Source: Treponema sp. (GTDB lineage: Bacteria; Spirochaetota; Spirochaetia; Treponematales; Treponemataceae). From it: DNA of 38,165 bases. Position 1 is the first letter of the stretch; each line of letters starts with the position of its first letter. The DNA lies in the NCBI GenBank assembly GCA_024693915.1, contig JAILKG010000323.1:1-38165 (forward strand), written 5' to 3'. Both the position numbers and the translations under genes were made by a program. Below the pieces are notes generated by a model that made no database searches, was not told the origin of the DNA, and saw nothing but the letters and a program-made list of their open reading frames with translations. Below are positions 26,030 to 26,236 of this stretch, piece by piece.

Positions 26030-26041
26030 AATTCATATTAT

Positions 26042-26205
26042 CAGGTTAGATTTCGAGTTATTTGACAACAAATAAAAATTGGCGTAGGCGTGGTTGCGAC
26101 ACAAAAAACACTCAGCCACCGCGAAGCGGTCTGCCGTTTTTTGCTGGCGCGTTCACGCCGAGAGCCAATTTTGAATTGAAATAAAAAATTCGAAATTTAG
26201 CCTGT
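26042..26205. repeat. 164-bp imperfect palindromic element (MITE/REP-like) with about 42-bp imperfect terminal inverted repeats
   Basis: caggttagatttcga...aaaattggc (26042-26083) versus reverse complement of 26165-26205 caggctaaatttcga...aaaattggc; central accgc-gaa-gcggt; inner stems caaaaaac/gttttttg and ggcgtg/cacgcc. Confidence 0.8.
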
Positions 26206-26236
26206 TATACATTAATCAAAATAAGGAGAATATAAA

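Follow-up and report, generated by a model that had tools for sequence, protein, structure and literature searches.

The window analysed here is a stretch of 38,165 nucleotides from a fragmented Treponema MAG (2.6 Mb in 332 contigs; host genome G000). On its plus strand a CRM/YhbY gene (PF01985, 25724–26029) is followed by a hairpin element and then by an ABC transporter ATP-binding gene (PF00005, 26237–27202). The element begins 12 bp beyond the YhbY stop codon. It runs from CAGG to CCTG at 26042–26204, 163 bp, one base shorter than in an earlier note that described a near-complete palindrome ending at 26205. The palindrome itself is real. The RNA fold of the plus strand has an energy of −72.4 kcal/mol, against −38.9 ± 3.8 for shuffled sequences (z −8.9, reached by 0/200 shuffles), and the DNA fold has −41.6 (z −6.8). 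Because the complementary strand folds clearly worse (RNA −58.6, DNA −35.1), the structure shows a strand preference, and plus is the structure-forming strand.

The whole length takes part in the fold, which turns at a GAA loop (26123–26125), as the note had anticipated. The left outer arm, or terminal inverted repeat (26042–26077, beginning CAGGTTAGATTTCGAGTT), was delimited by copy alignment and pairs with the right outer arm (26170–26204, ending TTCGAAATTTAGCCTG), delimited by fold and copy alignment. Internal to the arms, copy alignments show a conserved asymmetric internal loop with GTA on the 5′ side (26084–26086; GNA in the family) and GAGA on the 3′ side (26160–26163; GNNA in the family). 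The segment that the note read as a mini-stem does not pair with itself in the full fold, but across the element, GGCGTG (26087–26092) with CACGCC (26154–26159). A fixed G.T/TxT/T.G step follows (26093–26095 with 26151–26153), and the hairpin is closed by the apical module CAG-CC-ACCGC-GAA-GCGGT-CTG (26113–26133), which carries a C-GNA-G triloop. The covariance model R1 scores 84.7 bits at 26072–26175. The element is flanked by TTAT at 26038–26041 and 26205–26208, which we read from the sequence as a possible target duplication; it is 4 bp only, where the family norm is 5 bp, and this copy scores 0 in the 5-bp direct-repeat test given below.

A second, truncated copy comprising one arm and the apical part lies on the minus strand at 1908–2011, recognized by sequence match, outer-arm motif and R1. 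The inverted copy reported earlier is thus confirmed, with 70 nt at 97% identity to the first (1942–2011 versus 26103–26172). One of its outer arms is intact, with TAGCCTTATTTTCGAGTTT at 1908–1926, and the other is lost. The mini-stems attributed to copies A and B in the earlier note were interchanged: copy A, read on the minus strand, has GGCGTGAACGCGCC, and copy B has GGCGTGAACACGCC.

A BLAST search of the element against the host genome gave 42 matches at E ≤ 10, of which 30 cover most of its length, so the family is not confined to the two copies in the window. Host copies, once aligned, share about 98 bp of conserved core within arms whose ends are TARCCTNAANTTCGAGTT. The outer-arm motif TARCCTNAANTTCGAGTTW occurs at 81 sites in the host, against five for a reversed-pattern control. 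The arms measure 35–40 nt and enclose the structured core; elements are 140–290 bp long (paired elements 70–290 bp in the sister species G133) and have no coding capacity. R1 matches 70/146 Treponema genomes, with up to at least 27 copies in a genome. In a phylum-wide sample of 296 genomes it matches 18, in four genera, all within the Treponemataceae. Named matches to the apical motif are all Treponema or Spirochaetaceae MAGs from rumen and gut. A viral origin was rejected, as the apical pattern had no match in IMG/VR. The window element has no match above the gathering threshold among Rfam families, including TD-2. In gut and rumen Treponema the repeat has reached dozens of sites per genome.

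The copies follow a common hairpin plan: a GNA/GNNA internal loop, the fixed G.T-TxT-T.G step, a 3×2 loop and the apical C-GNA-G triloop. We tested a 104-position structure on an alignment of 17 diverse copies. Paired cells make up 97.8%, and 27/42 pairs show change on both sides. Covariation reaches 0.536, compared with 0.144 after shuffling and 0.06–0.09 with slid partners, and 0/500 shuffles were as high. Over 62 copies the middle-stem positions are almost without sequence information and the loops are fixed. The TxT mismatch is flanked by adjacent G.T and T.G pairs in 79/88 and 79/89 cases, respectively, as counted over 89 copies. Terminal inverted repeats are common to the copies within the host genome, and the terminal sequence differs between species. 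Across species it is the internal fold with its fixed non-canonical motifs that is conserved, rather than the ends.

Several observations bear on mobility. Among the 24 copies having both flanks, eight carry exact 5-bp direct repeats (ATTTA, AATTA, ATATA and ATGTA were seen), where permutation gives a mean of 1.2 and a maximum of 6 in 20000. Direct repeats are weaker in G133, with at most 5/57 elements at any one 5-bp register; this is expected of older copies, but is no proof. At the window locus G133 has no element. Its sequence there is AATATAGAAAAATAAGGAG, the YhbY and ABC genes lie within a few bases of each other, and its flanking DNA is 79% (YhbY) and 92% (ABC) identical to that of the host. 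A further site, L019, is likewise empty in G133. With many dispersed copies, terminal inverted repeats, direct repeats above chance and empty sites in the sister species, the suggestion of a MITE-like non-autonomous element held up.

The same arms also enclose other cores. Family B carries a different core inside the arms of family A, the type in the window, and folds with z −8.6. It is a branched core of about 130 nt containing GCGAAGC, found in the host at L047–L050, L058, L070 and L077 and in G133 at about 25 sites of about 193 bp. Among the paired elements of G133, family B is as frequent as family A. In G133 (the CAMHMJ MAG) A-type elements at L101, L102, L125, L136 and L139 have a conserved extra domain of about 75 nt inserted into the middle stem, on its left strand. 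G142 and G155 (L182–L187, L192, L193) hold elements of about 240 bp with yet another branched core that retains the GGA/GAAA loop and the GGTT/GGTT step, which suggests a larger superfamily. At the apparently orthologous site L024 both species have the same diverged arms, with a core of type A in the host and of type B in G133. This is most simply read as core exchange, the alternative being independent insertions at a hot spot. One B element interrupts the arm of an A element and has an ATTTA repeat. Internal deletions are common, and two core-less copies of 68 bp, at different further sites, have one deletion joint in common. Either they moved after loss of the core, or the core was lost twice between the same short repeats.

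We consider it likely that the window element is a copy of a new non-autonomous, MITE-like mobile family of the Treponemataceae, with an exchangeable core and a recombinase supplied in trans. From ordinary MITEs it differs in that, across species, its internal fold is conserved rather than its ends, and in that its cores are exchangeable. A putative recombinase acting in trans would insert copies at A/T-rich sites, mostly just beyond stop codons, duplicating 5 bp. What the copies conserve is a folded strand, and the reason is probably that a protein recognizes its fixed non-Watson-Crick features, whether in single-stranded DNA or in RNA. The stems diverge freely yet stay complementary, for which hairpin template switching between the arms would be the simplest cause, presumably accompanied by purifying selection on the unpaired motifs. 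Judging by its position, an inserted element is probably transcribed, and would form a strong hairpin at the 3′ ends of mRNAs.

That position was examined in 2.29 Mb of G133 (76% of the genome), with ORFs called by a simple script, so that distances are approximate. None of the 57 paired elements lies inside an ORF of at least 130 aa, and most begin −10 to +25 bp from a stop codon. Where the spacer measures at least 80 nt, 53% of elements lie within 25 nt of a stop, against 17% under uniform placement (n = 19). Part of this 3′ preference may reflect selection against elements that land in promoters and ribosome-binding sites. Several copies, L008 for example, coincide with terminators or directly follow them. 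Targeting of terminators was tried as an explanation and rejected, as T-tracts adjoin the ends in only 10/75 cases on each side, not clearly above the expectation for A/T-rich spacers. Orientation relative to the neighboring gene is strongly biased in G133 (sense:antisense 32:3, p 4e-7).

This adjacency to stop codons, together with the G133 sense bias, the strand preference of the fold, and the strong covariation around fixed unpaired motifs, is also what a structured 3′-UTR RNA family would show. Such a family would be selected as RNA (an mRNA stabilizer, an RNase III/E processing site or a small RNA), its mobility being secondary. There is a precedent in ERIC, which at Yersinia gene 3′ ends alters transcript levels (PMC10969869). 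However, G118 has no sense bias (7:8), the bias is weak when A-type copies from every species are counted (32:17, p 0.04), no Rfam family matches, and the direct repeats and empty sites require a DNA insertion step. We regard this alternative as unlikely, though still to be taken seriously.

A more specific proposal within the mobile reading is that the folded single strand is itself the unit of mobility. A hitherto unrecognized recombinase that is neither HUH nor reverse transcriptase would read the GNA triloop, the G.T/TxT/T.G step and the GNA/GNNA loop and leave the stem sequence free; the cores would be cassettes exchanged between arms, and complementarity would be renewed by hairpin-templated copying. 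We offer it as speculation, and it is improbable in this full form.

The stems could also belong to decaying, functionless DNA palindromes, kept complementary by replication template switching alone, with conserved parts that are merely young. G.U intermediates are few: over 3543 cells beyond the two fixed positions, G.T accounts for about 2% and A.C for 0.9%. Between copies, two-sided Watson-Crick exchanges are about tenfold more frequent than one-sided G.T changes at larger distances, and concerted exchange of this kind has been proposed as a mark of template switching (PMC8794818). The frequent internal deletions also fit decay. Yet template switching would erase the asymmetric loops as well, and GTA/GAGA, GTT/GTT and ACT/CC stay constant among species with little stem sequence in common. 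We find the decay account quite improbable and infer that the arms change in concert, as template switching predicts, with selection holding the unpaired motifs.

For the preferred reading, a mobile family served in trans, we looked for the mover. The 2.29 Mb of G133 yielded neither a multicopy transposase-like gene nor a version of the element with a gene between its arms. Candidates for an autonomous version, long G133 spans between arm motifs, proved to be half elements beside unrelated resident genes and were rejected. We did not find a parent transposon with the same ends in that 76% of G133 or among pairs of element ends in the host MAG, itself fragmented; a multicopy insertion sequence could be hidden in incomplete assemblies. 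Genes traveling with the elements were also rejected, as the ORFs surrounding 60-odd copies, compared all against all, gave no recurrent transposase. PF12784 (PDDEXK_2) ‘transposase’ genes are a candidate by family name, which is not in itself evidence. Several divergent PD-(D/E)XK (PF12784) genes occur in one genome, G133 (C1:130417, C13:5241 and C26:10140).

A mobile RNA hairpin, raised in the earlier note, would be a folded transcript that is reverse transcribed and then inserted. The structural conservation it implies is very strong, and both the strand preference of the fold and the sense orientation in G133 would suit it. A search of five copy-rich genomes (G000, G133, G118, G091 and G114) detected no reverse transcriptase (PF00078), and the enzyme is absent from 11/14 genomes tested, so we give this version very little credence. 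Repeats of the REP/REPIN type moved by a RAYT transposase, likewise suggested there, would suit a palindromic, intergenic, many-copied element with a conserved hairpin. They are strongly disfavored, since Y1_Tnp (HUH/RAYT, PF01797) was not detected in the same five genomes and exceeded the cut-off in only 3/14, and since the elements, at 140–290 bp with 5-bp direct repeats, are far longer than REPs.

With its architecture kept in nearly half of the sampled genomes of this large genus and its stems drifting almost without constraint, the family is a natural library in which to ask which features of a fold are recognized by a recombinase or an RNA-binding protein. The family is also a clear setting in which to test template switching as a source of concerted base-pair changes. 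It carries a warning, too: mobile DNA of this kind can look just like a textbook case of a covarying RNA. We found no description of this Treponema hairpin family in open-licence papers.

Among known systems, integron attC sites are, like the Treponema elements, imperfect palindromes in which the stems vary and extrahelical features are conserved. The Treponema elements are dispersed singly with 5-bp direct repeats, however, and an attC/integron reading was considered and set aside, cassette arrays being absent. TD-2 RNA (Rfam RF03162) is a structured RNA of Treponema whose middle hairpin, CGAGTTTTGC/GCAAAACTCG, is similar to the motif of the outer arms, but it consists of three short hairpins in a different architecture. 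As a parent family it is not supported, as it has no match to the window element and no host site above its cut-off. In the complete genome G432, about 130 bp separate a TD-2 RNA (L188:723–817, 58 bits) from an element matched by R1. REPs and REPINs are likewise palindromic intergenic repeats recognized as hairpins, but REPs are 20–40 bp (PMC3733652) and depend on a Y1 HUH protein, which our searches did not detect in the copy-rich genomes; the copy alignment has no GTAG-like tag. Correia/NEMIS elements of Neisseria and other bacterial MITEs are short, non-coding and intergenic, with terminal inverted repeats, A/T-rich direct repeats and deletion derivatives. The Treponema family differs in that no parent insertion sequence of matching ends was found and in that, genus-wide, it conserves internal structure and not terminal sequence.

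Closest in architecture and behavior are YPAL and ERIC of Yersinia and other enterobacteria. YPAL is 168 bp long, and ERIC copies lie partly at gene 3′ ends (PMC2267715, PMC10969869). Both resemble the Treponema elements in size, intergenic position, a long RNA-capable hairpin and tens to hundreds of copies. A sequence link is not expected. The host phylum is another one, and in Treponema the stems are nearly free, with fixed non-canonical motifs between them and cores that vary within the same arms. Most known bacterial mobile hairpins are recognized by their sequence, and a parent transposase can be assigned to them; what the Treponema family conserves is its architecture.
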